A stretch of DNA of 64,000 nucleotides from Stieleria maiorica (GTDB lineage Bacteria; Planctomycetota; Planctomycetia; Pirellulales; Pirellulaceae): contig NZ_CP036264.1 in assembly GCF_008035925.1 (NCBI RefSeq), forward strand, positions 8,160,343 to 8,224,342, written 5' to 3'. Made by a program: the position numbers and the translations under genes. Under the pieces are notes generated by a model, which was given only the letters and a program-made list of their open reading frames with translations, searched no databases and was not told the DNA's origin. Each line of letters starts with the position of its first letter. The stretch's first letter is position 1. This document shows, one piece after another, positions 41,631 through 61,900 of the stretch.

Positions 41631-42770
41631 ATGACTCCCACCCAGCGCTCCAACCTTCCTCCGCGTCGTCGTGTTTCCGATTCCGTCGAAGATCGCGTCT
41701 TGATCGATGCCGACGTCGCCGATTACATCGCCATGGATGGCGCCCACGATGCACGTGAGTCGATCCGTCGCGATTCGGCCAGCCGACCGACCCCGAAGAC
41801 GCAGACGGTTTCCTGGTACGGACGCAAAAAGGAAAACTCGCTCGGAACTGCCGGGCTTTGTCCCCGCCAGTTTGCGTTTGTCGATTTAAGCGTCGGGGAA
41901 CATGAATCGCGGGTCGACGATTTGGTGGCCAACGGCCAACCGCTGGAAATCGTCTACTTGGACCCGAAGCACGACGGGATCAAACAGATGGCCGAGGCGC
42001 TGGCCGATCAGGCCGAACTTGACGCGATCTTCTTGATTTCCGATGGCTGTGATGGTGCACTGCGATTGGGAGAACGCTCGATCGATCGCGCCGATTTGGC
42101 ACTCGACCATGCTTCGTCGCTGCGCATCATCGGTGCTTCATTGGCACGTGACGGGGATATCCTGCTGTACGGATCGGGCTTCACCGGGACGACGCGAGGA
42201 TTGCATTTGATCGACGCACTGACTCGATTGACCGGCGTCGAAGTGGCGGCGTTGGACGCGGGCATCGGAAAGGCGATGGCGGATCGTGACTGGGCGCTCG
42301 AAGCGTTGCGCGGGGCGCCGGTCCAGATGCACTCGGTCTGTGTCTCGGCCTCGGGAATGGAATCCGACGGCGTCTTGAAGGACGTGGCGATCGCGCCATT
42401 TTCTGGCGCGCCCGAGGACGGGGCGGCGGAGTTTCAATGTGCCGGGGCAATCCCCGGCGGGACGCTGGATTGCAACCTCGTCTTGGCATCCACGTCCTGT
42501 GATCCTTGGCAGGCCGGATTCTCTCCCGCTTTTGACCTGTTCGGCCCCCGCGGCATCAGGGTCGACGGGATGGCCATTTACAGTGGCAACCTCTCGCCGG
42601 CCGTCGCCAAGAAACTCGCCGCCGCACAGGAACTGGTCAACGTCGTGGCCACCAACATCGAGGCTGACTGGTTCCCCGAGAATGCCCAGTGGGTCAACGT
42701 TTCACCTACTACGTCGAAGATGACGAGCCAGGCGAAGGGGCTGTTGGGGGTGGAGGTTGGGGCAGTGTGA
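41631..42770 (+). CDS. Stand-alone DUF4347-domain protein, degenerate
   Basis: A 379-residue protein. The N-terminus has SVEDRVLIDADV, matching the LE-x-R-x-LL export-type motif that precedes DUF4347 in planctomycete giants. The domain spans about 80-215: FAFVDLSVGEHESRVDDLVA, IVYLDPKHDGIKQMAEALAD, LISDGCDGALRLGERSIDRA, LARDGDILLYGSGFTGTTRG and LTRLTGVEVAAL. DUF4347 normally has SHG and YGC, which look like a His-Cys pair; here they are SDG (Asp138) and YGS (Ser182). The domain usually caps proteins of thousands of residues, but this one stops at 379. A tandem repeat array begins at the stop codon. Possibly a truncated remnant. Confidence 0.7.
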   Translation: MTPTQRSNLPPRRRVSDSVEDRVLIDADVADYIAMDGAHDARESIRRDSASRPTPKTQTVSWYGRKKENSLGTAGLCPRQFAFVDLSVGEHESRVDDLVANGQPLEIVYLDPKHDGIKQMAEALADQAELDAIFLISDGCDGALRLGERSIDRADLALDHASSLRIIGASLARDGDILLYGSGFTGTTRGLHLIDALTRLTGVEVAALDAGIGKAMADRDWALEALRGAPVQMHSVCVSASGMESDGVLKDVAIAPFSGAPEDGAAEFQCAGAIPGGTLDCNLVLASTSCDPWQAGFSPAFDLFGPRGIRVDGMAIYSGNLSPAVAKKLAAAQELVNVVATNIEADWFPENAQWVNVSPTTSKMTSQAKGLLGVEVGAV

Positions 42771-42972: not shown

Positions 42973-43157
42973 GGTTAGACGCACGGAGTTGTTGATCGTG
43001 GTTCTTCCTGGGGCACCCTGCCTGCTTTCTTGGTCGATGCAGGGGTGATTGACGGAACTTGTCGCCCCTCGAGTCGATCAAAGGCGATAGACTGACAAGG
43101 CTGTTCACTTGTCACGTATTCTTGTCGATTGCCTTTTCTCGATGCCGGGGAGTGGAT

Positions 43158-44585
43158 GTGACTGGCCGAATCAAGTTTCCCTGCGGAATGTGCGCGCAGA
43201 CTTTGGCGGTCGATTCCGCATCGGTCGGACGACAGGTTCAGTGTCCTAAGTGCCAGTCCTACTGTGTGGTTCCGGCACAACGCATTCCGGCACAGGGCGT
43301 TCCGGCACAAGCCCCCGCCGCGGTGACACGACCCACGAAAACGCCGATTCCGCAATCGACCGTCGTCGCCTGCCCCGGTTGCCAAACGAAGCTGTCTGTC
43401 AAACTGTTGGACAAGCCGGCTCGGGTCGCCTGTCCGAAGTGCAACACGCAGGTCGCATTGCCCGCGCGGGGGCAACCGGCGGTAACGAGCCGGCCTGCAT
43501 CGCCCCCGAAAAGCGGGAGATCCGCGCCGGTGGCGGCACCGCCGGACGTGGACTTTGCTTCGTTGCCGCCTGGTCCGTCCGATGCTGCGTCGGTCGACTT
43601 GGGGCAACTCGATGTGCCTTCGGCTGCGGGACCCACGCCGGCCCGGTTTTCCGCGCAATCGCGTCGCAGCTCTTCGGGCGGAACGGTCGCGACGAAGCTA
43701 TTGGGTTGGATCGGAAATCATAAGATCGTCACGGCGATCGTCGCGATCAACGTTGTCGCCTTGCTCTCTTGCGTCTTCTTTCCTCCGTTGCTGGTCTTCT
43801 GTGCGATCGAGTTGCCGGTGGGCTTGATGATCGCGGGGGCCACGTTTCTTCCGCGATACCATCTCGTCCAGAAAGTCTCCCAGGGCATCGGCGCTCAAAT
43901 GGCGGGGCTGGGGGCCGGCGGCGTCTTGTTGTTGATCTTGGCCGTCGGTGCGAAAGCGGGGTTGCGGATCGCGCGGCGCGCCAATCGCAACGAGAACTTG
44001 GACTTTTCGGGATTCGATCCGTCCAGCGTCGGCGCGATCGTCGGGTCACTGGTGGTCTTTCTCTGCATCAGCGCCCTGATCGTGTTCCTGTGGAAACAGA
44101 TCGGCATCGTCCGTGTGGCCGCCGCCGGCTACCTGTTGCAGATGTCTCTGTTGACCGTGTTGATGATCATCGGTGGATCCGTCAAGTCGTATCGGGACGC
44201 CGAGATCTCGCGCCGCCACGAAGAATCGCTGGCCAGGATGCGGGGGCCGGGTTGGAGCCCGCCGGCGTTCCAATCGCCCTCATCGCGAATGAACGCGGAT
44301 CAACGGGGTGCGATGGGCGGGCCGAGGGAGTCGGAGATTCGGATCATCTTGATGCACGGTCCAAACACGGATTTGAGTGAGGTGCGGAAGACGTTTCTGG
44401 CCCAGGTCGGTAATCCGGAGTGCGACGTGCAAACCACCGGGGCGATGATGACCGAGTGGATCGTTCAGGAGTCACGCGATCCGCAGGAGCTCGCGGACTT
44501 GATCGATTTCGGCCGCGTTTTAAGCGTCAGCAAGTTCGGCCGAACCATTCGCGTTGGGATGCCACGCGTTCGTCCTGGTCGCTAG
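43158..44585 (+). CDS. Double zinc-ribbon multi-pass membrane protein
   Basis: A 475-residue protein. The N-terminus holds two zinc ribbons: KFPCGMC (Cys9, Cys12) with CPKC (Cys29, Cys32), and ACPGC with ACPKC (about residues 75-105), the form IKFxCxxC...CPxC...VP common in planctomycete membrane proteins. A Pro/Ala/Ser-rich linker follows, then five to six membrane helices (about 195-360; AIVAINVVALLSC, AGLGAGGVLLLILAVGA, VGSLVVFLCISALIVFLW), and a soluble C-terminal domain. GTG at 43158 is favoured by GGGGAG five to six bases upstream. Its stop abuts the stop of the convergent gene with no gap. Function unknown. Confidence 0.75.
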   Translation: MTGRIKFPCGMCAQTLAVDSASVGRQVQCPKCQSYCVVPAQRIPAQGVPAQAPAAVTRPTKTPIPQSTVVACPGCQTKLSVKLLDKPARVACPKCNTQVALPARGQPAVTSRPASPPKSGRSAPVAAPPDVDFASLPPGPSDAASVDLGQLDVPSAAGPTPARFSAQSRRSSSGGTVATKLLGWIGNHKIVTAIVAINVVALLSCVFFPPLLVFCAIELPVGLMIAGATFLPRYHLVQKVSQGIGAQMAGLGAGGVLLLILAVGAKAGLRIARRANRNENLDFSGFDPSSVGAIVGSLVVFLCISALIVFLWKQIGIVRVAAAGYLLQMSLLTVLMIIGGSVKSYRDAEISRRHEESLARMRGPGWSPPAFQSPSSRMNADQRGAMGGPRESEIRIILMHGPNTDLSEVRKTFLAQVGNPECDVQTTGAMMTEWIVQESRDPQELADLIDFGRVLSVSKFGRTIRVGMPRVRPGR

Positions 44586-46136
44586 CTACGGGGAGCTGGT
44601 TGCTTCGGCAGTCGCCGCGGCCTCTTCGCTGTTGGGGCGAATGGCTTCGAAGTAGGTTCGCACGGTTTCCCGGACGCCCATCGGCAGCGGTTCGGAATCG
44701 AGGACGGCTTCGGCTTGGCGGCGGAAATCGTTGTACTTTCCGGCATACGCTCGAACTGCGTTTTGTTCCCCTTCGGGTGCTTGCGTGATTTCGGTCTCGC
44801 TGGCCCCTTCGCCTTGAACCCCCGTCAGTTGTTCTTCTTTGCGGGTGCTGTTGATGTTGGTCGCTTTGTCACCGAGCGGTTGACCGCTGGAGGCCATGCC
44901 GGCTTTGGTGCTGGGGCTGTTGGACTTTTTGGCGATTTTCGATTGGCACTGGCTGCGGCACTGGCCTTTGCATTGGGAGAGTCGATTGAGTTGGCACGAC
45001 ATGCACTGACCGATCTTTTTGCACTGTCCTTGTTTCTTGCACTCACCGGCCAGTTTGGACAGGCACGCTTTGCATTCCTTCATGTTCTTGCTGCTCAGCC
45101 CTTCGGCGAGTTGGGCGATCGACTCGCTGAGCTGGCCGTTTTTTCCGGGGCTAAGTTTCGCGACCATTTTTTTAAGGTTGTCGGCGACGGCGCGGCGTTG
45201 TTTGTCGCCGATTTTGGACGGGTCGACCGATTCCAATTCTTCGCTGGCCTTTTCATAGTCTTGCGACTGGAGCGCTTTGGCGGCTTGTTGAAGTTGATCG
45301 GACGGTTTGATGGCGGCCGCCAGGGCTTGCATGGTTGCGTCGGTCATTTCCAACTGCATCGCCTCGCGGGCTTCGGCCAGGGCCTGTTCCATTTCAGAGA
45401 GCGAGGCCATCAGGTCGCTTTCATCCATCGTTTCGGACTCCAGCTCGTCGACCTTTTCGCGAAGCTCCTCCAGCAGTTTCTCGATCTCGGGGTCTTCGTG
45501 TTCCTTGGCCAGTTCTTCCAATTCGGTCAGCATCGTTTCGCGAAGCGTCATCGATTGCTCGGTCGCTAGCGCCAGCACGGGGTTGGCGTCCACTTCGGGC
45601 AACCCGCTGCCGGTCAGAGCGAGGACGAGGGTTAAACCGGCGGCTAATCCTGCGGCCCATCGCAGTGGCCGTTTCCAGGATTGGATCGGAACGCACTGGT
45701 GGGCATCGATCTTTTCCAGGTGTGCGTTGGCCTCTTCGATCTGCAGCCGTTTGGCGGTCTGGTTGTCGGCAGACGACTGGTCGGCCGCGGCGAGGAATTC
45801 CAGCGTGGTGATCGACCGGTCTTTTAGATTGAAGTGCTCGTCGATCATTCGCGCCGCCGACTGGGCGCTGCGGATTCGCGAAGCGCCCAAAAGCAGCCCG
45901 ATTGCACCGCCCAGCAGTGAAATCGCAACGGCCCATCCCCAGTGGGTGGCCGGTGCCAGGATCGCCCGTGCCAAGGCAAACACGAGTGCGGCCGCGATTC
46001 CGATCAACAGCCCCGACGTCACACCCTGGACGACCGAGGCCAGCCACAGTCGCTTGCGTACCGAACGGGTCAGGGACTCGATGGGACTAGTCGTCAGCGG
46101 GTGGTCGTGACGAGAGGATTGCGAATCGTTGCTCAT
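44586..46136 (-). CDS. Membrane protein with coiled coil and Cys-rich cluster
   Basis: A 516-residue protein. Two N-terminal membrane helices (about 32-60, 68-86) are followed by a helical segment with RSITTLEFLAAADQ, a third helix (about 157-177), and a long acidic coiled coil (about 195-340, LEELAKEHEDPEIEKLLEEL). A cluster of nine cysteines sits in 44 residues (about 353-397; ECKACLSKLAGECKKQGQCK). The layout resembles DUF4175-like proteins found with von Willebrand/MoxR loci in planctomycetes, but the match is loose. It may bind metals or form disulfides. Convergent with the zinc-ribbon gene; its upstream region is shared with the giant gene. Confidence 0.65.
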   Translation of the reverse strand: MSNDSQSSRHDHPLTTSPIESLTRSVRKRLWLASVVQGVTSGLLIGIAAALVFALARAILAPATHWGWAVAISLLGGAIGLLLGASRIRSAQSAARMIDEHFNLKDRSITTLEFLAAADQSSADNQTAKRLQIEEANAHLEKIDAHQCVPIQSWKRPLRWAAGLAAGLTLVLALTGSGLPEVDANPVLALATEQSMTLRETMLTELEELAKEHEDPEIEKLLEELREKVDELESETMDESDLMASLSEMEQALAEAREAMQLEMTDATMQALAAAIKPSDQLQQAAKALQSQDYEKASEELESVDPSKIGDKQRRAVADNLKKMVAKLSPGKNGQLSESIAQLAEGLSSKNMKECKACLSKLAGECKKQGQCKKIGQCMSCQLNRLSQCKGQCRSQCQSKIAKKSNSPSTKAGMASSGQPLGDKATNINSTRKEEQLTGVQGEGASETEITQAPEGEQNAVRAYAGKYNDFRRQAEAVLDSEPLPMGVRETVRTYFEAIRPNSEEAAATAEATSSP

Positions 46137-46928
46137 GTCGGCCTCGAGAAAGATCTCAAATGGGCGGTCGGGCGTTCAAGACTCGCTGTCTAGGGTAAGG
46201 GGTTCCCACCCACGCGGTCAAGGATTCCGTGCGACAAAATGTGCCCGATGTTTGGTGCCCCTGATTCGCCGGTCCCGGATGCGGGGTGGGCGTCGTTTCA
46301 GGCGGCAATCCTGGCGCAACCCTTGCGGGGCGTCGGAATCGGTTTGATCGCGCAGGGGGCGACAAAAAGTGGGGCGATGCGTCGGCGAAGTTCCGTGCCA
46401 GCGGTAACGGGTGGCGCATTTATAGGCACCGAAAACGCTGGTCTGTCGGCAAACCCTCAAACCGCAGATTCCCCAAACAGGTGGTGTCGATCGTCGGTCG
46501 CCCATCGGATGGACGATTCTGCGGAACTTTGGCGGCGTTGGGTCGTCCAACGTCGACGTCGGAGTGTGCCGAGAATGCCGATTTCGCGGGAATTCTCGTG
46601 CCGGAACCGCCTGGAAGGGCCGGTGGCGGATTATCTCATTCCAGCGTTCGCACCGTCATGATCGGCAGGGTCGTCCCCCGAAAAATGGCTGCGTTGACCG
46701 TGGAGCACGCATTTATTTGCGGGTTTTTTCGGTCGAACTATACTCGGCTCTCGTTTCTCGACCGTCCTCCAGGTCGAGGAGCGACTTGTCATTTTGCCTT
46801 GTTTTTTGGGCGGTTTTTTGAACCCGAGATCGCCCGACCCACAACACGATTGTCCACCCCACCGGCCGGTCTGCCGCATCAAGCTTCTGCTCGACGTACG
46901 CAGCAACGCCCCCATGAAGGTCTGGTCT
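46137..46928. other. Long leader/intergenic region upstream of the giant gene
   Basis: A 792-base gap between divergent genes. Several overlapping open frames exist on both strands, but none has a start signal or recognisable composition, so I call no gene. The right third is AT-richer, with a candidate promoter (46717-46744), a T-rich stretch (GCCTTGTTTTTTGGGCGG near 46797) and AAGG (46917-46920) eight bases before the giant ORF's ATG. A long 5' leader of about 180 bases is implied. Confidence 0.5.
46717..46744 (+). promoter_or_regulatory. Candidate promoter of the giant gene
   Basis: TTGCGG (46717-46722), a 16-base spacer and TATACT (46739-46744). The -10 is one base off the TATAAT consensus. 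It is the best match in the 792-base gap and would give a leader of about 180 bases. Confidence 0.4.
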
Positions 46929-49900
46929 ATGACTTCGCGTGAGCGAAAGAACTCAACGTCCAACAGTGCTCCCCAGGACGTCATCGAGTCGAACATCATT
47001 GAGTCACGTTCTGCCGCATCCGTTGTTTCCGGTCGAAGCAAAAAACGACGTTCGTCCAAGCCGCGTGAGTTGCGGCGACGTCAGTTGTTCGAATCACTCG
47101 AACAGCGTCAGTTGCTGGCCGGTCCGCAATTGATCGGGATTCAGCCCAATGAGGGTGAATTGATCGTCGACGGGACCGTGCGTGACACCGCCCCGCGGTC
47201 GCTGACGTTCCGATTTGACGAGAACCAGCAGATCGATCCGGCCACGTTGGGCGCGATTCAAATCACCCGCGACGGCCCGGACGACCAATTCGGAACGGCA
47301 GACGATGTCCGGATCCAGCCCGGATCGGTCTCGCTGGGCGCTCTGGCGGACAACGAAGTCGTGGTTCGGTTCGCCGACTCGTTGCCCGATGACAGCTACC
47401 GGATTGATGTGTTCGGCTTCGATGCTCCGACAAGTGGCATCGTCGGGTTGCGTAACGTGCAAGGCGAATTGTTGGTCGCTCGGGACGGGGTGGGAGACGC
47501 CGAGCACATCAATTTCGAATTGAACCTGGGGGCCAGGGTCGAAGCCGTCGTGCCGCAACCGGTTGTGCGGCTTGATGGGGGCACGTTGCAGCAACGGCGC
47601 GATGAGATCTTGGTCTACTTCAACGACGACGAGTTGTTTGTCGAAAACGATCCCGCCACCGGGTTGCCGACGGAGCGATCGGCAGAGAACCCGCGGTTTT
47701 ATCAGTTGTTGTTGACCGAAGAAACGGTTCGAACGACCGACGACACGATCTATCAGCCCAACCGAGTCATCTACGACGCGCCGACGAACACGGCGCGATT
47801 GATCTTTGACGACGACCTGAATCTGTTGCCCGGCGTGCCGCTGGAGGGCGGGACGTTCCGATTGCGGATCGGAACCGCGGTCGATCAGGCGGAAGATCTG
47901 ATCATCCAGCCGACCGAATTGAACGTCGTTCCGCGGGTTTCCAGCAATCTGGGCGCCGCGTCGGACCTGCAAGTGCAGTGGGTTTCCAAGGTGTTCGGTG
48001 AAGCCAGCGGCAATCGGCTGATCCATTTCACCAACAGCGGAGCGGGTGGGCTGAGCGTCTCGATCGACCCGGCAACCGACGACATCGTGTACGACTTTGG
48101 CGGGACCACGGTGACGGTTGCGCAGCTCCGAAATGTCACGCAAAACACGCCCTCGGTGGACGCCGTCGTTTCGATCTCGTTCTCCCGCGGCGGCGTTGCG
48201 GGTTCCGGCGGCGGCCTGGTCGTTCCGGCGACATTGGCCAACGGGGCCCCGCTGCAGTTGGCCGCGGTCGGCGACACGTTGACCACGGCGACCGACATCG
48301 GCGTGTTCGGACAATCCAGCGGTCAGCTGTTGTCCAGCTTGTTGATTTCAGAATCGATCGACCCGCTGCCGTATGGGATTCAATTGCCCGGCGCGCAAAC
48401 GGATCCGGGGCGAGCCGATTCCAATGGGGCGTTGGCAGAGAACATCAACGACCGTTTCGGTCCCGATTCGACCGACGGGATCACCGAAATCGAATACAAC
48501 TTCCAAGGCATCTTCTCCGGCGGCGTGGGCACCGGAATCCCCGCCCAGTTGAACAACATCACGGCGATCCAAAAACGCCGCGTTCGAGAAGCCATTTCTC
48601 TGTGGTCGCAGTACCTGGGCGTGCAGTTCCGCGAGACCAAGGATTCGGGAATCACCTTCGCACTCGGGACGCCGAGTGAATTGACCGCCGCGGCGGGGAC
48701 GGAAATCCGTTCGATCCCCGTTCTCGATGCCGATTTGCGGATCGATCCGACCTTCGCCGAATCGGCGATGGTGTTCAGCAACCAAGCCCACTTTGACCTG
48801 AACTACGGCGAGGACTTTTTCCGCAAGGCGATGACCGGAATCGGGTTCTTGTTGGGGCTGGAACAAAACAACGACGTCACCGTCCAGACCCTGATGGCCC
48901 TGGACCCGGATTTCCTGAATCAAACCATCGACCCCACGGCGTTTATTTCGCCGATCGATCCCTTCATCCCTGTCCAAACCTCGTTGCAACAGACCATCAA
49001 TCCGGCGATCGATTCGCTGACGATTGATGACCCGCTTCCCAATGCCCTGGAAGGCGACGAGCCGATTTTCCCCGGCCGGTCGGACATCTTGCACGGCCAG
49101 TTGCTGCATCGTCCGGACAGCGTCGACGTCGACCTGTACCGCTTCGAAGTTGCACTCGACGCGGGCCGCGAGTTCGGAACGTTGACCGTCGAGACGTTCG
49201 CCGAGCGACTGCCCGATTCCAGCTTGCTCGACACGTCGCTGACGCTGTTTCAAGACGTCTCGGCATCGGCAACGAGCAACTTGGGCCTCGGGTCCGCGGT
49301 GACGGTTCAAATCGATTCGCAGTTGCCCGGCGATCTGGGGAACCGTTCGCGAATCGAGTTCATCCAATCGGACCGAGTCGTCGGTGATACCGCCGTCAAG
49401 ATCGGCCGGCTGACGAGCGCCAACGGTGAACTGGTCGAAAACGCGATCCGTGTCGATCTGCCGCGTCGCGGTGCGAACGTCAATCGGGTCACCGTCGGTC
49501 AAGTCATCAACGCGATCAACAACAATGCGTTCGCCGCCTCGCTGTTCAGCGTTTCGCTGGTCGAAGGCGACATCAACGCCAACGTGATCGATTCTTCACT
49601 GGGAAGTTTTTCTCCGATCCGGTTGTCCGGCGGCGGAACGGTCGCGCTGACGCGCAACGATGATTACTTCAGCAGCGACTCGTTGATGACCGCCAAACTT
49701 GCCAACGGTGTGTACTACATCGGGGTCGCGGCCAGCGGGAATGACCAATACAACCCGACAGTCGCGGGCAGTGGATTCGGTGGACGGACCCAGGGCGACT
49801 ACGAATTGCTGGTCAAGTTCGAACCGCAGGTCAGCCGCAACGACGTGATCCGTGACTTGGATTCGGACCGCGTCGGCGTGCCCGGAACCGCGCTCGACGG

Positions 49901-52900
49901 CGATTTGGACGGCAAACCGTCCGGCGTCAACAATTTCTGGTTCCAAACACGTCCGCTGGATCGGATCCTGAATGTCGTGTCGGACGGCAGCGGGATCGTT
50001 GCCGGTCAGACGATCACCATTCGCGGCGCGGACAACTCCGTGCGGACGTTCGAATTCGTCCCGGTCGGTCAATCGGCACAGCCGGGCAACATCGCGGTTC
50101 GATTCAGTGCGGTCAACGCCATCGCCGACATCGCGGTGAACCTGGCGTCGGTCATCAGTGCCAACGGTGGCGCGCTCGGTGTCAGCGCGAGCCCGCAGGT
50201 CGACACGAGCGATCCTTTGGCCCCCGCGCAAATTTTCTTGACCGGGGAACGGTCGATCCAATTCAGCCCGGTCTTCCAGGGCATCGAAGCTTTGGGGCGG
50301 ACGTTGTTCGTTGACAAGGTGGCCAGCGTGGTTGCCGACGGGAGTCTGGATCAGCCCTTCAATAACATCGCCGGTGCGGCGGGACTGGGCGCGTTTTCGG
50401 CCACCTTGCCGGGCGACATCGTTCGCATCGTCGGAAACGGCGGTCAAGACAACGACATCACCACGCTCGGGGACAACTTTGCCTATCAGGTCGGTTTGAC
50501 CGAGATCAACGGCGGCATTCTGCCGGACGGACGCCATCTGGATGTCCCCCGAGGCGTGACCACGATGATCGACGCCGGGGCGGCGTTCAAACTCCGCGGT
50601 GCGACGCTCAGCGTGGGCAGCAACAACCTGCTCAGCAATCGCAACGGTGGAGCGCTCCAGGTGCTCGGGACGCCGACGTTGTTGCAGGTTTCCGATCCCA
50701 GCCCGCTCGGCGCGGCAAACTTCGATTCCGGACTGGTCGATTTGAATGCCTCGGGCAACGTGGTGTTCACCAGCACCCGTGATCGTTCGGTCGATTTTAC
50801 GGCATCGGGCAATAGTCCCCAGCCGGCCGAGGGCAACTGGGGTGGAATCATCTTCCGCAGCGATTTCGACCGCAGCGAGGGCCGCCCCAACCTGGAAGAC
50901 GAGGGGATCTTCTTGCAGGTCGTCAATCATGCGGACATTCGCTACGGCGGCGGCAGCAACATCCTGATCAATTCGGTTCAGCAGACGGTCAACCCGATTC
51001 AGATCGTCGATTTGCGACCGACGGTGACGTTCAACCGATTGACCAACAACGCCAGCGCGGCGATGAGTGCCTCGCCCGATGCGTTCCTGGAGACCCGCTT
51101 CCAGGAGCCGAAGTTCCAACAGGCCGGAACGTTCACGGCCGACTACAGCCGGATCGGTCCGGACATCAAGCAGAACTTGGTGATCGACAACAGCATCAAC
51201 GGCCTGTTCATTCGCACGATCACCCAGATCGGTCAACCGGCGCGCCCGATCACCGTTGCCGCACACATCGATGACGTGGACATCGTCCACTACATCGCCG
51301 AAAACGTGGTGATCGCCGGCCAACCCGGTGGCCCGATCCAAGACGGATTCGTTCCCAATTCCTCGTCGGTCTCGCTCAACGCGACCGGCGGCGGCTCGCT
51401 GCCGGTTGGAACGTTCGACTATCGCGTCACCTTTGTCGATCGATCCGGATTCGAATCGTTGGCGAGTGCTCCGACGATCAGCGTGACGACGACCGCCAGC
51501 GCGCGTCAGGTTCAAGTGTTGAACTTGCCGTTGATCACCAGCGGCTCGGATTATGTCACGCGTCGGCTGTACCGATTGGACCCCGTCGATGGCGCGTATC
51601 GGCTGGTGACCGAACTGAACCGTTCGTCGTCGTCGTTTGTCGACGACGGTTCGACGTCCGGTGGCGCGGCGTTGGACTTGAGCCGAGCGGGGATACGCGG
51701 TCGGCTGAACGGATCATTGGTCGTGGACCCGAACACGGTGGTCAAATTCCGTGGCGCCCGGATCGAACTCGATCACGGAACCCAACTGTTGGCCGAAGGT
51801 GTCAGCGGTCAGCGCGTCGTCTTTACCAGTGCCCTGGACGACCGATTCGGGGCGGGCGGATCCTTCGACACCAACAAGGATGCCGGCACACCGGGCGGCG
51901 GAGCGGACCCGCAGCGTGGCGATTGGTCGGGCATCTATGCCGGTCCGACGGCCAATGTCAGTCTGGACAACGCGATCGTGGCCTACGGCGGCGGCGTCAG
52001 TTTGATCGAAGGCGGACAAAGTCGTGGATTCGCCGCGTTGGAACTGCAGCAGGCCACTGCCCGCGTGACCAACACCCGTTTCGAATACAACGACAACGCA
52101 CAAGATGGCTCCGGCCCGGTCGGGCGAAACGGTCGGCTGGCGATCACGCCGGCAACCATCTACGCGCGATTCACACAACCGGTGATTGCCGGCAACGACT
52201 TCGTGGACAACCACGGAGCGATCATCGATATCGATCTCGCGTCGATGACCGACGAGCTGATCGTCGATTCGGGACGCCAAACCGGTGCGATCGATCTGCT
52301 GTCCGGATTCGGCGATAACCATGGCCCGCTGATCCGCGACAACACCAGCGACAGCGAACCGGGTGACGTCGACGGCAGCCGTCAGCTGAATGGTCTGCGG
52401 ATTCGCGGCGGTGAAATCACCGGCGGGACCGTGTTCGACGACACCGACATGGCACACGTGTTGTACGAGTCCGTGATCGTCGGCAATCTCGTCTCAACGG
52501 CGGGCTTGACGCTCAAGAGCCGGCCGGATGAAAGTCTGGTCGTCAAGTTTGCCGGACGTGGAACTCCCAACAGTGCGACCGCCGGAACCGGGATCACCGC
52601 GACGGGGTCGACCGCGGATATCGATGACCGCATCGGCGGAACCGTGCACATCATCGGGCTTCCCGGAGCACCGGTCGTCCTGACCAGCTTGAAAGACGAC
52701 TCGGTCGGCGCCGGGCGTCGTTCCGACGGCACCGCGCAAACGGACACCAACGGTGATGGATTCGGAAGCCGGCCCGACAGCAACGATTGGCGGAGCGTGC
52801 TTCTGGATGGGTTCAGCAACGACCGCAACGTCGCGGTTCTGCTGGAAGAGGAATTGACCACCACCGCGCCTCCGGGACGCAACGCTTCGGTCCAGAACGC

Positions 52901-55900
52901 ACAGATCCTGGGCGACCTGGCCGATCGGCTGACCGCCAGTGACGACCAATTGCGTCTCGGTTTTGAAGTCGACGGCTACATCAGCGCGCCGGGCGACATC
53001 GATACCTACGGCTTCACCGCGTCGGGGGGCACGCAGATCTGGATCGATGTGGATCAGACCTCGCTCGGTTTGGACACCATGATCGAATTGGTCGACGATC
53101 ACGGGAACGTCATCGCTCGGTCGGACAACAGTTTCCAAGAGGTCGAAGATCCCTCCCAGCTCGATCTCCTGGCCCCAGGTGTCCTCGCCGGCGGCCTGGG
53201 CAATCAGGACAACCCACAGATCAAACGTTGGGAAAACGGCACCTATTACGACGTCGGATCGACGAACCTGAGCGACGCCGGATTGCGCGTCACCTTGCCG
53301 GGCGTTGTTGGCACGCGAAGTGACTACTACATCCGGATTCGGGGGGCGTCTGTCGATCCCGATGACATCGCCGGCGGATCCAGCAGCGGTTCCTACCGAT
53401 TCCAATTGCGTTTGCAAGAAGATCAGGAGTTCCCCGGCAGTGTCGTGCGGCACGCCGACATCCGCTATGCCAATCACGGCATTCATGTCCAAGCGCTCCC
53501 GGGCTCCTCGCCGCTGTTGGGCGAGGCACAGGAGAACGAAGCGGCCGATCCGTATTCGCAAGCGGCGCGGGATGAAATTGACCTGAGCACCGGTGGCTTG
53601 CCGATCGCGGGCGGATACGGCATCGACGGCGAACCCCGTTACGGCACCGACTTGTACGCCAGCAACGACCAGATCAACGGCGGGTTCTACGGTCCACAAG
53701 ACCTGCTCAATCCGACCGTGCTGAACTCTCGGCCGCAGAACCTGGGCGATCTGATCGAGACCAAGACCGGGACGATCAGCGTCGGCGGTCAGCTGGCCGA
53801 CGTTTCCGACGTCGACTTCTACCAATTGGACATCGATCGCGACGGATCGCTGACGGACCTGCGACGATCGACGACGTTTGACATCGATTACGCCGCCGGG
53901 TTCGATCGACCCGACACCAACCTGAGCGTGTTCTATTCGCCCACGGGCAACCCCAATCAGGCCCGGTTGGTCTTGTTCGGCGAAAACAGCAACGTGTTGG
54001 ACGACCAGTCCAGTCCGCTCAGCACAGAACTGATCGGAGAACTGTTGGAGCGTGGATCGATCAGCGAAAGTGATCCATTGATCGGTCCGGTGGCACTGCC
54101 GGCGGGAAGCTATTTTATCGCCGTGACCGAAAGCGGCCGTGTGCCGACGGAATTGATCGACAATCCGCGCGTCCGTCGAACGCCCGTCGATTCGGGTGTG
54201 CGAATCTTCGATGACCACATCGAAGTCATCGGTGGCGCGACGGCCGAAGCGCCGCGCGAGTTGGAGTTCGTTGCGACTGCCAGCGGCGGATGGTCGATCA
54301 CGACCAATCGCGACGTCGATCTGGGGCACGACCGTCCCAGAACGTTGTCCACGTTGACCAGCGATGATGGCGCCGAAACGGTGCCGGCGGTGCCGACGAT
54401 TCCTGTGACGGGTTTCAATACGGTCTTCAATTCCGATTTCTCGATGACCAATTCCGACGACGGCACCAATTCAGGTGACCCCGTCGTCGGCATCGAAGCG
54501 GATGACTTCGTGGCCGATCGGATCGTTCTGGCATTCCAACCAGGGGTCTCGGTCGTCCAGCGAAATCAAATCCTGAATCAGAACGGATTGGAACTGTCCA
54601 AAGAATTCGATTCGATCGATGCGATCGTCGTCAAAACCCAGCCGGGGGCGGATATCCCCGCCGAGGTCAGTCGTTTGTCGCAACTGCCCGAAGTCAAGTA
54701 CGCCGAGCCCGACTTCCTGTACACCACCTCGCTGGTCCCCAATGACCCGTTGTATCCTTCGATGTGGGGTCTGGATAACACCGGGCAGACCGGCGGGACG
54801 ATCGACGCCGATATCGATGCGCCCGAAGCGTGGGACATCACGCCCGGCAACGCGCAAACCGTCGTCGCGGTGATCGACAGCGGGATCGATCTGACGCATC
54901 CCGACCTGGTGGACAACCTGTGGGTCAACCCGGGCGAAATCCCCGGTGACGGTATCGACAACGACAATAACGGCTACATCGACGACATCAACGGACTCGA
55001 TCCGTTTGACGGCGACAGTGTGCCGCAAGACACGGTCGGACACGGCACCCACGTCTCGGGAACGATTGCCGCGGTCGGTAACAACGCGATCGGGGTGACC
55101 GGGGTGAACTGGAACGCCAAGATCATGACGCTGCGTGTCGGCGACGTGAACGGCATTCCCAACACGGCGGTGATCGAAGCCCTCGATTACGTCACGATGA
55201 TGAAGCGTGACTTCGGGATCAACGTGGTCGTCACCAACAACAGTTACGGCGGGTTCTTCCCCAGTTTTGCGATGCGTGACGCGATCCTGGTCAACACCAA
55301 CGAGGGGATTCCGTTCGTCGCAGCGGCCGGCAACAGTGGGCTCAACAACGACCAATTCCCCGCGTATCCGGCCAGCTTTGACCTGCCGGGAATCATTTCG
55401 GTGGCAGCCACCGATGACAATGACGACCTGGCCGTGTTCTCAAACTTCGGACTCGGTAGCGTCGATTTGGCGGCTCCCGGGGTCGACATCCTCAGCACGA
55501 CGTTGGGTGGCGGCTATGGACTCAACAGCGGAACGTCGATGGCGTCGCCGCACGTCGCCGGAGCCGTTTCGATCCTGGCCGGTTTCCAGCCTTCGGCGAC
55601 CGTCACGGATTTGAAAACCGCGATCATGCAGGGCGCCGATCCGCTGTCCAACTTGACGGGCACTTCGGTTTCGGGGGCTCGGCTGAACCTGTTCGGAGCC
55701 TTGGCGAATTTGCCGTCCGGAAGTGTCGGCAACGAATCCTATCACTTTGATCGCAGCGAAGCGGTCGGTCGGATGACGTCCAACGCGTTTGATCTGACCG
55801 GATACTCCGCCGCGGATCTGCCCAGGTTCTACTTCGACTACTTCGTGGATCGGGCCGCCGCTGACGATATCAGCGTGCAAGCGTTCAGCAACGAGCAGTC

Positions 55901-58900
55901 GACGCCGGTGGAACTGGACGTTGATTTGGATGACCCGGCATTGGCCGGCCAGTGGCGCCAAGCGGTGCTGTCGCTCGAGCAGTTCGCCGGCGATACCGGC
56001 ATCGTGATTGAGTTCATCTACAACACGGATCTGAACGATACGGCCGAAGGTTTGTATCTGGACAACTTTATCGTCGGATTCGCCGAACGCGGGGAAATGG
56101 TTTCCGACGCCCTGTTCGGCGAAGCCGACTTCACGACGACGTTCACCGGAACCCCCGGCGAATACCAGTTGGAAATCCGCCCCGGTACCACCTACACGCA
56201 GTCGATCCAGGGAGGCATCCTGGTCGAACGCGCCCTGGAAGCGGCGCCAAAACTGATCGACCCGGTCTACCTGAGTGTCCAGGCGGGACGGGCGATCGTT
56301 CCCTACGACACGTTCACGATCGACGTGCTCAATACGGTCACGGGAGTCGATGAGACGCTGACGTTCCAATACCAACCGGTGGAAACCGCGCGTCAGGATG
56401 CGTCGTTGGTCGATCCGAACGCGGTCCCCGTTCCGTTCGCCCGCAACGATACTCAGACGGGCATCGTCAACCGAGTGGTCATCGCGATTCGCGGTCTGAC
56501 CGATTACGCGTTCTTTAGGGTCAACGCGGAGAATATCGAGCTGACCGAGTCGTTCGACACCAACGATCGCCACGGTGACGATTTGACGCTGATCGCTCCC
56601 GCCGGCAGCCAACTCAGCGAAGGCGATACGTTCCGGTTGGGCGACGGAAGCCGCACCCGTACGTTTGAATTCAGCACCGATTCGGTGGTCAGCTTCGGGA
56701 ACATCCGTGTGCCGTTCTCTCCGGGTGACTCCGCCGCACAGGTCGCGCGTCGCATCATCGAAGTGATCAACTCCGGCGTCGTTCAGGGCAGCTTGCAACT
56801 CCGTGCGTCAACCGTTTCGGGCGAGTGGGACTTCAACAATCCCACGGCGCCGGATCCGGTACCCACCGACGCCAGGATCGCGCTGCACGGCTCTGCGGCG
56901 GGCAACTTCCATGCGGTGCAAGGCATTAGCGATGCCCCGCAACCGGGAACGCCGCTGCCGGTCGGCGACGACGGCTCGCTGATCCTCTCTGCCATCTTCC
57001 GCGACAGTGTGGGAGACCGGAATACCGTACGTACGCAGGGGCAAGTGATCGTCGAGAACAACCAGATCACCGAAGTCCACGCGATCGGCATCTGGAGCGA
57101 CCCCGGATTCCGTGGCACCGATCCCGAAGACAACCGGTCACCGGATTTCGTGCCCGCTCCGACCGGCAACAACTTCATCGACATGCCGCCGGTGGGCAAC
57201 ACGCAACTGGGCGGCGTGATCAACTTCCCGGAACTCAACGATTCGGTCCCGGGCGGATTGGCGCCCGGACTGGTGGCCCAAAACAACATCATCGACCAGG
57301 CCGGTTACACGGGCATCAAGGTCGACGGCGAAACCCGGCCGCTGGTCATCGAGTGGAACAATATCATTTGGACCTACTTGAGTGGCGGAACCGAGATGCC
57401 CAACCGTGGTGACATCATGGTTCCCGATGGATTCACGTTTGCCATCGACGCCGGCGGAACGCGAGTGGTCTTTGAATTCGAGGACATCGGTGGAACGCCG
57501 GTCAACTTCGGCGGCAGCGGAGCGGCCGGTGGTGACGGATTCGTCGACGGTCACGTTCCGGTTTATTACCGGCTCGGTGGTGGTCCGACCTACAACCCTG
57601 CTTTGCCCGATCCGGTTCGAAATGTCGGATACACCAGCCATGAAATGATGATGGCGATCTACGAGGCGATCCAGGGCAGCATTCTGGTCACCAATGATCT
57701 GGTCGAACTGGTGCGTCCGACGCTCGGCCCGTCGTTGACAACCTTCGATGCGCCGCTCGTTCAGGCGGAAGATCTGGATACCCTGTTGCGTCCCCAGATC
57801 ATCGACCCGAACTACTTGGACTTCTTCACCCCGGCGATCTATCTGGAAGGTGCGACGGCCATCTACACTTCGGCTGCGTTCACCAAACAGAATCGTCCGA
57901 TCATGCTGAACTTGGAGCGAAGCAGTTTCACCGGTCCGCTGGAGATCGACACGATCTTCAATTTCCAAACCGGTGAAACGAGCAACACCGCGGCGGCGAT
58001 GATGCCGATCGCCGAAGCTCCGCAACCGCTCGCCAAACTGATCAACAACACCATCCGAGGATCAGACGGTACCGAGGGTGCGATTCTTGAAGACGGCTCG
58101 CTCTCTCCCGCGGTGGGTGCGGCGACCGACGAACCCAATGACGTCATCGCCAATGCGGTCGATACCAAGTTGGAAGTCAGTCATCGCGGTGGTTTCTTTA
58201 GCGACGGCACGATCGGTGACAACAACAACTTCTTGACCGCCGATCAAGACGTCGACTTCTTCAAGGTCGAATTGGCAGTGGGCGATCGGCTGATCGTCGA
58301 CATCGATACGCTTGTCGACGGACCGGCCACCCAGTTGCGTGTCTTCGACGCGACGGGAACCCAGGTCGCCATCGGTGAAAACGGGGCCCTGGCGACTCAC
58401 CTGAAACCCGGTTCGACGGTCGAGTTCCCGCTGACCGATAACGCCAACGCACGGGACGGGTTCATCGATTTCACGGCCCTGGAAAAAGGCACCTACTACG
58501 TGGGTGTCAGCAGCGCCGGCAATGAGACGTATGAAGCCAAAAGCTTGACCGAACGCACCACCGGGCTGGGCGGAACGGGCGACTACAGCCTGGGAATCGA
58601 CGTGCTGGCACCGAAGTCGTTCGTGTTCTCGCTGGACAATCACCCGATCGGCCCGTTCGGCAACGAGGACATCAGCGGCAACATCAACGGCACGCAAGGA
58701 GAGGGCGGTCCCGCCGGTGCCGGCAGTCTGGTCGGAACGACGTTCACGATTTCCCAGATTCCCGATTACCAGGTGCCGACGCGAACGGGAGATGCCTACG
58801 CGGGCGTGGTTCCCGATGGAAACCGCGTGACGTTCGAATTCACCAACGGTGTCAACAGCATCGTTCTGAACAACGGCAACATCAACGTCCCGATCTTTTC

Positions 58901-61900
58901 GACCAGCTTCCTGGGCGCGGGCGGATTCCGAGTTCCTGACATCATGCGGTCGATCGCCAATGCCATCAACGGCTACTTGAACAACCCGGCGATGCCCAAC
59001 CACGAAGTGGGGAACGGGCCGGACGGTCGCGATGGCCCCGTCACACGGGTCGAGGCCCAGGCGCTCGGCGGCACCTATGGCGATAACATCGGCATCAACA
59101 ACATGATCCGGCAAAGCGGGTGCGACCTGTTCCTGAACATCGACGCATGCCCGTACGGAATCTTCGGATCGATCGACTTTACGACCGGATTCGGGCACGA
59201 CCGTCGCGAAAGCGGATCGCTTGACATCGTTCCCAACGGCACGTTCACCGATTCCCGCGGAACGAACGAGTTGTACGTGTTGATCGATAACGCGGCGAAA
59301 ATCGAGTTGAGCCCCGAGGCGCGTGCGGCGGGTCTGAAACTCGGCCCGGACAACTCGCGTTTGGCCAACGGCGACTTGCGGAATTCGGAGTTTGCGACCG
59401 AATCCGATCAACTGTTGGCCGAACAAGGGATTTATGTCGGCAGTGGTGTCAGCGCATCGATCCTGAACAACGTTGTCGTCAACACTCACCAGAGCATGGT
59501 GAAAGAGGAATCCAGCGTGTTCGGATTCGGCGGCCGGATCGACGCGCAGAATCCGGACATCAGTATCAAGCAAGGCAACGTGGTTGCTGCGGGTAACGCG
59601 TTCCAGTACGACGACTATCGCAACACCCAAATGCGATCGGACATCTCGTGGTGGGTCGGGGTCGGCGGCACGGTCAACCGCAACCAGTCGCTGGACACCA
59701 GTCTTTCGACCGATCTGCGGACGGGACCAAGCAACATCGCCGGTGGCAATTCGGACTTCAACTTCGTCGTCCAGCAACCGGGAACCCCGGGGCAAACGCC
59801 GGGGAACTTCATCACCTTCATCGGCGATGACGTTCTCGAAGACGGTGCTGCGGGGCGGTTCACTCCGGCGCTGAATTCGTCGATCATCGATAGCGCCGTC
59901 GACTCGCTTGATCCGAACGTCGATCTGTTCACGCTGAATTCGCTGTTGGGAATCCCGACCCGGTCGATCAATGCACCGAAACGCGATTTCTCCGGACAAT
60001 TGCGTGCCGACGAACCCACCCAGGCGCCTCCGGGAGGCATCGGGGCGGACGTCTTCAAGGACCGTGGTGCACTGGACCGTGCCGATTTCGTCGGTCCCAC
60101 CGCGACGTTGGATTCACCACAGGACAATGATTTCGCCGGACGGGATACCGACCCGGCGACCAGTTTCGTCAACCGTAAAACGGGCGTGTTCACCGAGTTC
60201 CGAATTCTGGTTCAAGACCTCGGGGATGATTCTAACCCGTTTGTCGGTTCGGGAATCGACAACGACACGATCGTCGTTTCGCCGATCGACGGACTGCGCA
60301 ATCCCGGGGCGAACCTGACGTTGTTCGAAAACGGCAATCTGCTGGTCGAAGGCATCGATTACACGTTCAGCTTCGACGAAACCGGCGGCGTGATCACGCT
60401 GAAACCGCTGGCCGGCGTTTGGCGAAATGATCGTTCGTATCGGATTGAGTTGAATAACCGCGACCGTACCGTGCTGATCGCTCCGGATTCATCCTCGGTC
60501 ACCGACGGCGACCAGCTTTCGGTCGTCGACAGCAATGGCGGCACGGTGATCTTCGAGTTCGAGTCGGGCTACTTGATGCATTTGCCCGAAGCACTGACGT
60601 TGGAAGTGCCGCGTCAGGGCACCAACCAGGGCGGTTTGATCGATGGCGGAGTCTTCTCGATCGGTGACGGCGTCAACCCCGACATCATTTTCGAGTTCGA
60701 TTCCAACGGGACCACCGTTCCGGGCAGTGTCCCGGTCACGCTGCCCGCGACGGCCACACCCGTCGACGAAACGCAACGCCAACTGTTCCTGGAATCGATC
60801 GCCGAAAACATTCGCGTGGCCATCCAGGGCGTGATCGACAATCCCGGATTGCTGTTGGACGTCGACGTCCGTACCGACGGATCCAAAGTGATTCTCAGCA
60901 GCGAGCCGGGCACGCGGGTCGATGTGTCGACCAGCGGTTTGGTCGCCGCCGCCAGAACACTCGGGTTGCAAGTGCCGTTGGCCGGAGCGGATGTGGGCGG
61001 CGTCATTGTCGGCGAAACCTTCGTGGTCGACGACGGCAACACGACCCAAACGTTCCAGTTTGTCGATGCCACCAACCCGGCGCCGGCCGGTGTGGTCGGT
61101 GTGGACATCAGCCCTGTGACCGGCAACACGCCACTCAATTCCAACGAAGTGGCCGCCGCGATCCTGGCATCGATCAACGCTTCGAGCCTGAGCCTGACCC
61201 CCGAGATCATCGGCCGCACGGTGTACTTGGATCTGCCGGTCGATGGTTCGGCGGATGTTCCGTCGGGTCGACTGCGCGTGATCGGCATCAGCCGCACCGC
61301 AGGTGACGGGGACCTGATCCGAATCACGCCCACCGATGGCAGCCCCCAAGTCGTGTTCGAAATCAACCGAACCGACGAGCGTCAGGGCGGGCTGATCGTC
61401 GATGACGGCGTCGATCCGAACAGCCCGACCAACATTCCGATCAACATCACGCGAGATGTCACGGCCGATCAACTGGCCGGAATCATCGAAGCGGCGATCG
61501 AAAACGAACTCGGCGCCAACCCGATCGCCGGGCTTCCGATCAGCGATATCCGCGCGGTCGGGCAAGGCATCTTGCGGATCGGCGGGGAAGAAGGCTTGGG
61601 GCTCGCCGTGACCGGCAACAGCCTGGAAGTGACCGGGACGCCCAGCGTGACCGGTGCGTCGACGTTGGAGGTGTTCGGCCCGCTGTTGATGGAAGTTCCG
61701 TTCACCGCGCCCAACGACGGTGACACCTTCACGGTGGTCGATGCCAACGGAGCCATCGTCCCGTTCGAATTTGATTCCAACAGTATTTTGCTGGATCCCA
61801 CCGCACAACGAATCGTCTTCACCAGGTTTGATGATCAAGTGGCGGTCGCCACCGCGATCACAACGGCGATCAATGCGGCCGGCATCGGTGTCACCGCGAC

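Follow-up and report, generated by a model that had tools for sequence, protein, structure and literature searches.

Organization of the locus

The window, that is, the whole stretch of 64,000 nucleotides of the marine planctomycete Stieleria maiorica that was analyzed (G000:C1:8160343-8224342, out of a genome of 9,894,293 bases), ends inside the gene of a giant protein that we call giant A. Its frame is open on the + strand from window position 46698 past the window end and measures 6460 amino acids from stop to stop. Counted from the ATG at 46929 the protein has about 6,380 amino acids, with the stop at genome position 8226422. Just 5' of this ATG, within the open frame, the + strand has four terminator-like sites that overlap or adjoin one another (46731-46813; 1.2 were expected), and their location inside the frame fits a start at 46929 over one further upstream. 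A DUF4347 protein is found upstream of giant A (41631-42770), followed by two proteins without Pfam or NCBIfam match (43059-44582 and 44589-46136). The features considered here are the following:

46929 to 64000 and continuing beyond the window, + strand: frame of giant A; the ATG at 46929 yields the residue numbers of the original prediction
47073 to 47126, + strand: planctomycete extracellular motif (PF07595) around SLEQRQLLA, below the curated cut-off
48300 to 49130, + strand: pseudo-metzincin region of 277 amino acids, used as query for the homolog searches
48576 to 48629, + strand: first long helix, RRVREAISLWSQYLGVQF, aligned to the first helix of the MMP catalytic domain via intact homologs
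48738 to 48755, + strand: RIDPTF, a segment of the clade described below, with the pattern R[IVT]DP
48834 to 48866, + strand: TGIGFLLGLEQ, the replaced HExxHxxGxxH site, residues 636-646
48891 to 48893, + strand: Met at the presumed Met-turn, from the column alignment
49068 to 49106, + strand: FPGRSDILHGQLL, conserved segment 3' of the site, from the homolog alignment
54483 to 55646, + strand: subtilase (S8) with a Fervidolysin-like prodomain inside giant A, with the D, H and S motifs present
63162 to 63419, + strand: GEVED domain inside giant A

The two PF07595 scores in giant A were 18.7 and 17.9 bits (E 0.0013 and 0.0025) against a cut-off of 25.5. Big_9, Cadherin_4, Cadherin_5, GEVED and Dockerin_1 were all above their cut-offs, and PPC-like pieces were also present. 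The part located 3' of GEVED contains cadherin-like/Big_9 repeats, with a dockerin near the C-terminus, beyond the window. By its cadherin-like and Ig-like repeats together with the dockerin, giant A is classed as a predicted planctomycete surface giant.

A metzincin domain by descent

The original prediction described a matrixin-like metzincin domain in which every residue of the zinc site was replaced, and the position that it gave for the site, residues 636-646, turned out to be exact. In the columns where the homologs have HEIGHLLGLGH, giant A has TGIGFLLGLEQ, so that the first His is replaced by Thr, the Glu by Gly, the second His by Phe and the third by Gln, while the Gly is kept. The HExxHxxGxxH/D zinc site of the matrixin enzymes is missing from the domain, and a pattern search of the full frame of giant A found no HExxH. 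The helix RRVREAISLWSQYLGVQF, proposed to be of the matrixin type, does align with the first helix of the MMPs through the intact homologs.

Searched by itself, the domain of giant A had no Pfam match at an E of 1 or lower, and its PDB search returned two chance matches only (best E 0.26). Profiles built from pseudo copies only gave no significant metzincin in the PDB (best metzincin E 0.58), the second of them having no metzincin among the 17 matches listed. The link to metzincins comes instead from intact and intermediate homologs. Related domains were present in 159 of the 199 genomes of the family, and none was found in the viral contigs searched. The site is replaced in all of the first 23 aligned sequences, giant A included. 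Among 40 more distant loci, five (L060, L064, L066, L069 and L072) carry HEIGHLLG[LIM]GH in the same columns, and there are also half-way sites (RQIGHLLGLGD, GEIGNMLGLGH, QGIGRLLGIG) that can be aligned with both intact and lost copies. A profile of five intact homologs matches the catalytic domains of human MMPs (MMP-11 with E 2.7e-7, and also MMP-12, MMP-1 and others), and Pfam Peptidase_M10 matches 13 of 48 family members, with a best E of 1.5e-9. When a pseudo-only profile of 33 rows was compared with the intact-only profile of 5 rows, 223 columns were aligned (hhalign E 4e-67), with TGIGFLLGLEQ set on HEIGHLLGLGH; the second pseudo-only profile gave 221 columns (hhalign E 1.1e-48). This chain of intact, half-way and lost sequences makes the homology firm and, as far as sequence comparison can tell, confirms that the domain of giant A is a matrixin-like metzincin by descent.

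The metzincin fold is probably retained, as indicated by the homology and by the structural residues that are kept. The AlphaFold models of the giant A domain and of a locus from R. baltica (L002) had mean pLDDT values of 30.0 and 34.2 and were below 50 throughout, too low for their metzincin-like order of strand, helix, strand, strand and helix to count; RRVREAISLWSQYLGVQF is also helical in both of these low-confidence models. The Met at 48891-48893 would correspond to the Met-turn. In matrixins the C-terminal helix of the domain has the pattern D-D-I-x-G-I-Q-x-L-Y, and FPGRSDILHGQLL is possibly its equivalent here.

An old clade without zinc site

We collected 193 loci and, after omitting two that were other cuts of one gene (L001 and L073), obtained 191 domains corresponding to 181 distinct sequences. 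Sites of the form HE..H..[GEAS]..[HD] were called intact and any departure from it lost, which gave 58 intact and 123 lost domains. By this rule near-intact copies such as HELFHILGLGN, QEIGHALGLGH or REIGHLLGLGD count as lost, and two copies without the middle Gly (HEIGHLLSIGH and HEIGHLLELDH) count as intact. Five of the 181 sequences were left out of the tree for being short, distant or over-long (L013, L078, L098, L099 and L120), and 30 more for being at least 82% identical to a retained row. The maximum-likelihood tree of the remaining 146 was built without the motif columns, its bootstrap reaching 0.988 against the 0.99 wanted.

Giant A belongs to a clade of 53 rows from 24 genus groups, with a support of 100/100 and no intact member (0/53). 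Aligning related giants had been suggested as a check of the original prediction, and the replacement proves to be conserved from genome to genome. The other 93 rows of the tree comprise 48 intact and 45 lost copies. At least 14 changes of site state are required on the tree, and counting losses only there are 19 all-lost groups, or 18 if the clade of giant A, split by re-rooting, is taken as one.

The direction of the change is a loss, given that HExxHxxGxxH is shared with the MMPs and that the three His and the Glu are all present in the 12 domains read from f2 and f4, two further families of the class, with the middle Gly missing in two of these domains. Two more distant matches, found in other families of the phylum, have QEIGHALGLGH and HEHGHGLGFEH.

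Arrays of paralogous giants

Four paralogous giants, giant A included, are found in the source genome. Giant B (8015 amino acids) is located downstream of A on the same strand, and its frame opens about 130 bases after the stop of A; a scan of the coding strand between the two genes turned up neither sigma-70-like nor terminator-like sites, a result of no weight either way. The site of giant B (L194 and L195, G000:C1:8226556 onward), RGVGDLLGIGN, has also been lost, in a way unlike that of giant A. The third paralog (5281 amino acids; L196, G000:C1:9334500-9352499) has FGVGQLLGYGY, and its close relatives in several genus groups are mostly similar, ending in GQLLGYGY, another old and fixed replacement. 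The fourth (6640 amino acids; domain at G000:C1:7198614-7199261) has the intact site HELGHAIGLGH. A fifth, weak match, HEIGHLLGLGH, was found in a frame of 16,321 amino acids (L078 and L263, about G000:C1 4212054-4212236). The paralogous giants, intact or not, are colinear along much of their length.

We have examined copy by copy 15 genomes picked among the well-assembled ones that have the clade, its presence in 15/15 being therefore a matter of choice. In all of them the clade gene is the first of an array, with another family giant on the same strand no more than about 21 kb further on. An intact copy is present in 14 of the 15 genomes and within the same array in 11, using in this survey a laxer pattern that accepts any residue for the Gly; G036 (HELGHALELPH) and G055 (HEIGHALSLSH) are intact by ligands and Glu only. 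In S. maiorica (G000), G130 and G585 the intact copy lies outside the array, and in G011 we found no intact copy of this giant family, more distant metzincins only. Two giants had unusual domain regions. In one of 5318 amino acids (L252/L253, G103:C1:670641-671216) the domain match comes in two pieces and the site region is unrecognisable, and in the domain region of another (L250, G585:C1:5252011-5252625) HEIGHAIGLGH is accompanied by HEVGHGLGLLH, a second HExxH-like motif. The subtilase was considered as a general partner and discarded, since in a pattern search the S8 motifs were found in giant A and were absent from three other clade giants, of the genus groups g14, g46 and g40, as far as these were fetched.

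With a clade gene at the head of every array examined and an intact giant so often in the same genome or array, the pseudo domain might be a regulatory partner, one that pairs with the intact neighbour metzincin or competes for its substrate as a decoy, inhibitor or assembly subunit. Elsewhere pseudo metallopeptidases are said to regulate their active relatives sometimes (PMC11266112, from the part of the text available). However, duplicates also adjoin for historical reasons, the four genomes with no intact copy in the array do not fit a pairing of neighbours, and both partners would be domains of giants, for which a one-to-one pairing is hard to picture. We consider this alternative unlikely, although it stands best among those that compete with a binding module.

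Replacement of the site and selection

Within the clade the replacement of the zinc site is constrained. The residue at the position of the catalytic Glu is small in 53/53 rows (40 Gly, 9 Ser and 4 Ala), its entropy being 1.02 bits, with 1.70 as the mean of the domain. At the first His (34 Ala, 7 Ile, 6 Thr, 3 Val and 3 Leu; n=53) the entropy is about average, 1.62 bits. The second His is Phe, Leu or Met in 40/53 and His in 0/53 (2.55 bits against the mean of 1.70), and the third is Gln in 18, Arg in 15, His in 6 and others in the rest of the 53 (2.65 bits against the same mean). These two high values are expected if the positions were merely relaxed. The helix Gly (G182) persists in 51/53, and L185, G186 and L187 in 52, 53 and 53 of the 53. 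The pattern R[IVT]DP appears in 43/53 clade rows, in 0/48 intact copies and in 0/45 of the other lost ones, and the clade conserves further residues found in no more than 25% of the intact copies, if at all, among them R147 (51/53), D149 (53/53), W102 (51/53) and R175 (45/53). Met at the presumed Met-turn column is found in 43/53 clade rows, giant A included, versus 32/48 intact copies.

For dN/dS we used 34 close pairs, 6 intact and 28 lost, which share sequences and are mutually non-independent; a ratio could be obtained for 27 of the lost ones. The values were 0.048-0.120 for intact pairs, 0.023-0.145 for lost pairs and 0.034-0.145 for pairs of the giant A clade. Over short distances selection is as firm as in intact copies, indicating that the pseudo domain is no decaying remnant. 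Over long distances the picture is a different one, since giant A and its paralogs share 26-33% in the domain region and about 32-43% in residues 1200-2500, so that the domain has diverged faster than its neighbours. A local oddity or a recent pseudogene is ruled out by the clade in the tree and by the dN/dS values. We have here a peptidase homolog whose catalytic residues are lost and whose sequence is under selection, that is, a pseudopeptidase, and we hold with great confidence that it is an ancient and selected pseudo-metzincin.

The same numbers can be read in favor of a pure structural spacer, in which the fold would be kept only to avoid harmful misfolding of the giant and there would be no functional cleft or surface. 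Catalysis seems easily dispensable judging from the many changes of site state in the tree, no residues of the motif are better preserved than the structural Gly and the L-G-L, and the domain diverges faster than the neighbouring region. Against this, the RIDP segment exclusive to the clade and the invariably small residue at the Glu position point to a constraint beyond folding, and we find such a spacer improbable. That catalysis survives through another metal or set of residues, as could be suggested by H265 of the alignment, a His located after the site and present in both pseudo and intact copies, is extremely improbable: 53/53 clade rows lack the general base as well as the first and second His ligands, and there is no HExxH in the four clade giants that were read, of which two were fetched only in part.

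The reading that we prefer, with a confidence slightly on the favorable side, is that of a single early loss after duplication, followed by retention of a domain that does not cut and works as a binding module. A giant surface or secreted protein with a matrixin-like metzincin domain near its N-terminus and an intact site would have been duplicated, and in one copy the zinc site would have disappeared entirely, a single time and early in the Pirellulaceae, with the domain retained since. The pseudo domain would no longer cut while its fold stays, and the filled active-site helix together with the new RIDP segment would form a non-catalytic binding surface. The giant would be exported and serve as an extracellular adhesin or matrix protein, beside an enzyme-bearing sister giant. 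The partner of the pseudo domain may be the intact neighbour, a peptide belonging to a different giant, or a polymer from outside. What comes directly from the computation is the descent of the domain, the loss of its site and the age of this loss, the purifying selection and the tandem arrangement with paralogous giants, often one of them intact. As for function, the chances that the domain is a binding or scaffold module look about even, and the binding or inhibitory role proposed originally appears plausible.

A broader and rather doubtful extension is that the giant with the anciently disarmed metzincin, which can be told by a small residue at the catalytic Glu position, by G-x-x-L-G-L and by R-[IVT]-D-P, is produced beside a colinear giant with the live enzyme as a pseudoenzyme-enzyme system of the Pirellulaceae that builds or remodels the extracellular matrix. 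If this were true, such arrays, conserved in the Pirellulaceae, would be the bacterial counterpart of the animal sets of ADAMs and pseudo-ADAMs.

Comparison with known systems

The closest enzymes are the matrixins (Peptidase_M10; MMP-11, MMP-12 and MMP-1), with which the domain can be aligned via intact homologs over a segment that begins with the first long helix and ends with the zinc helix, and whose HExxHxxGxxH these homologs carry. The clade differs from them in that it never has the Glu or either of the first two His and only rarely the third, and in that its domains are embedded in giants, whose open frames measure about 5,300-8,600 amino acids where no contig end cuts them; the one that was scanned has cadherin-like repeats. 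It is in animals that pseudopeptidases are best known, and the family of giant A is bacterial. According to the part available of PMC11266112, the pseudopeptidase ADAMs (ADAM2, 7, 11, 18, 22, 23 and unc-71; family M12) have the zinc site replaced, typically keep the Met-turn and act in protein assembly rather than in cutting. They are animal membrane proteins of another metzincin family, whereas in our case it is a whole clade of bacterial giants that is inactive. CLCA and other zincins, prokaryotic members included, have both intact and non-randomly substituted HExxH sites (PMC3650047, as far as available), a mixture that is also found in the family of giant A. Those belong to other zincin families, and the replaced His tend to be Arg or Lys, while in the clade of giant A the Glu changes to Gly, Ser or Ala and the first His mostly to Ala.

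Pseudo-metzincins are therefore known elsewhere, and the clade of giant A is a new variant among them; we found no report of it in the open-access library searched. The main text of a 2025 paper on transferred MMP genes (PMC12587646) has no words beginning with planctomycet, pirellul, inactive or pseudo. What the family offers is a single tree with intact, half-lost and wholly lost zinc sites, including one loss common to 24 genus groups and still selected. It also provides natural pairs of disarmed and intact domains, often in one array, available for experiments, and an entry point to what planctomycete giants do, proteins of great size and cost that are for the most part unexplained.

Giant proteins of planctomycetes had been described before (PMC5177795), the R. 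baltica giant RB11769 has been discussed (PMC2754498), and the giants of Stieleria (PMC7717043) are the same kind of giant surface protein as giant A, in each case going by the portion of the paper available. The accessible parts of the accounts of giants in PMC5177795 and PMC7717043 make no mention of an inactivated metzincin domain. For S. varia, the accessible part of PMC7717043 gives three consecutive giants of 6271, 7630 and 6858 amino acids, named 'Tandem-95 repeat protein', 'Uncharacterized protein' and 'Matrixin'. The open frames of one of our arrays (G138) measure 6297, 7634 and 6907 amino acids, close to the lengths given there. If the S. varia trio, as described in that part of the paper, is orthologous to this array, the annotation would have named the intact giant and missed the two disarmed ones.
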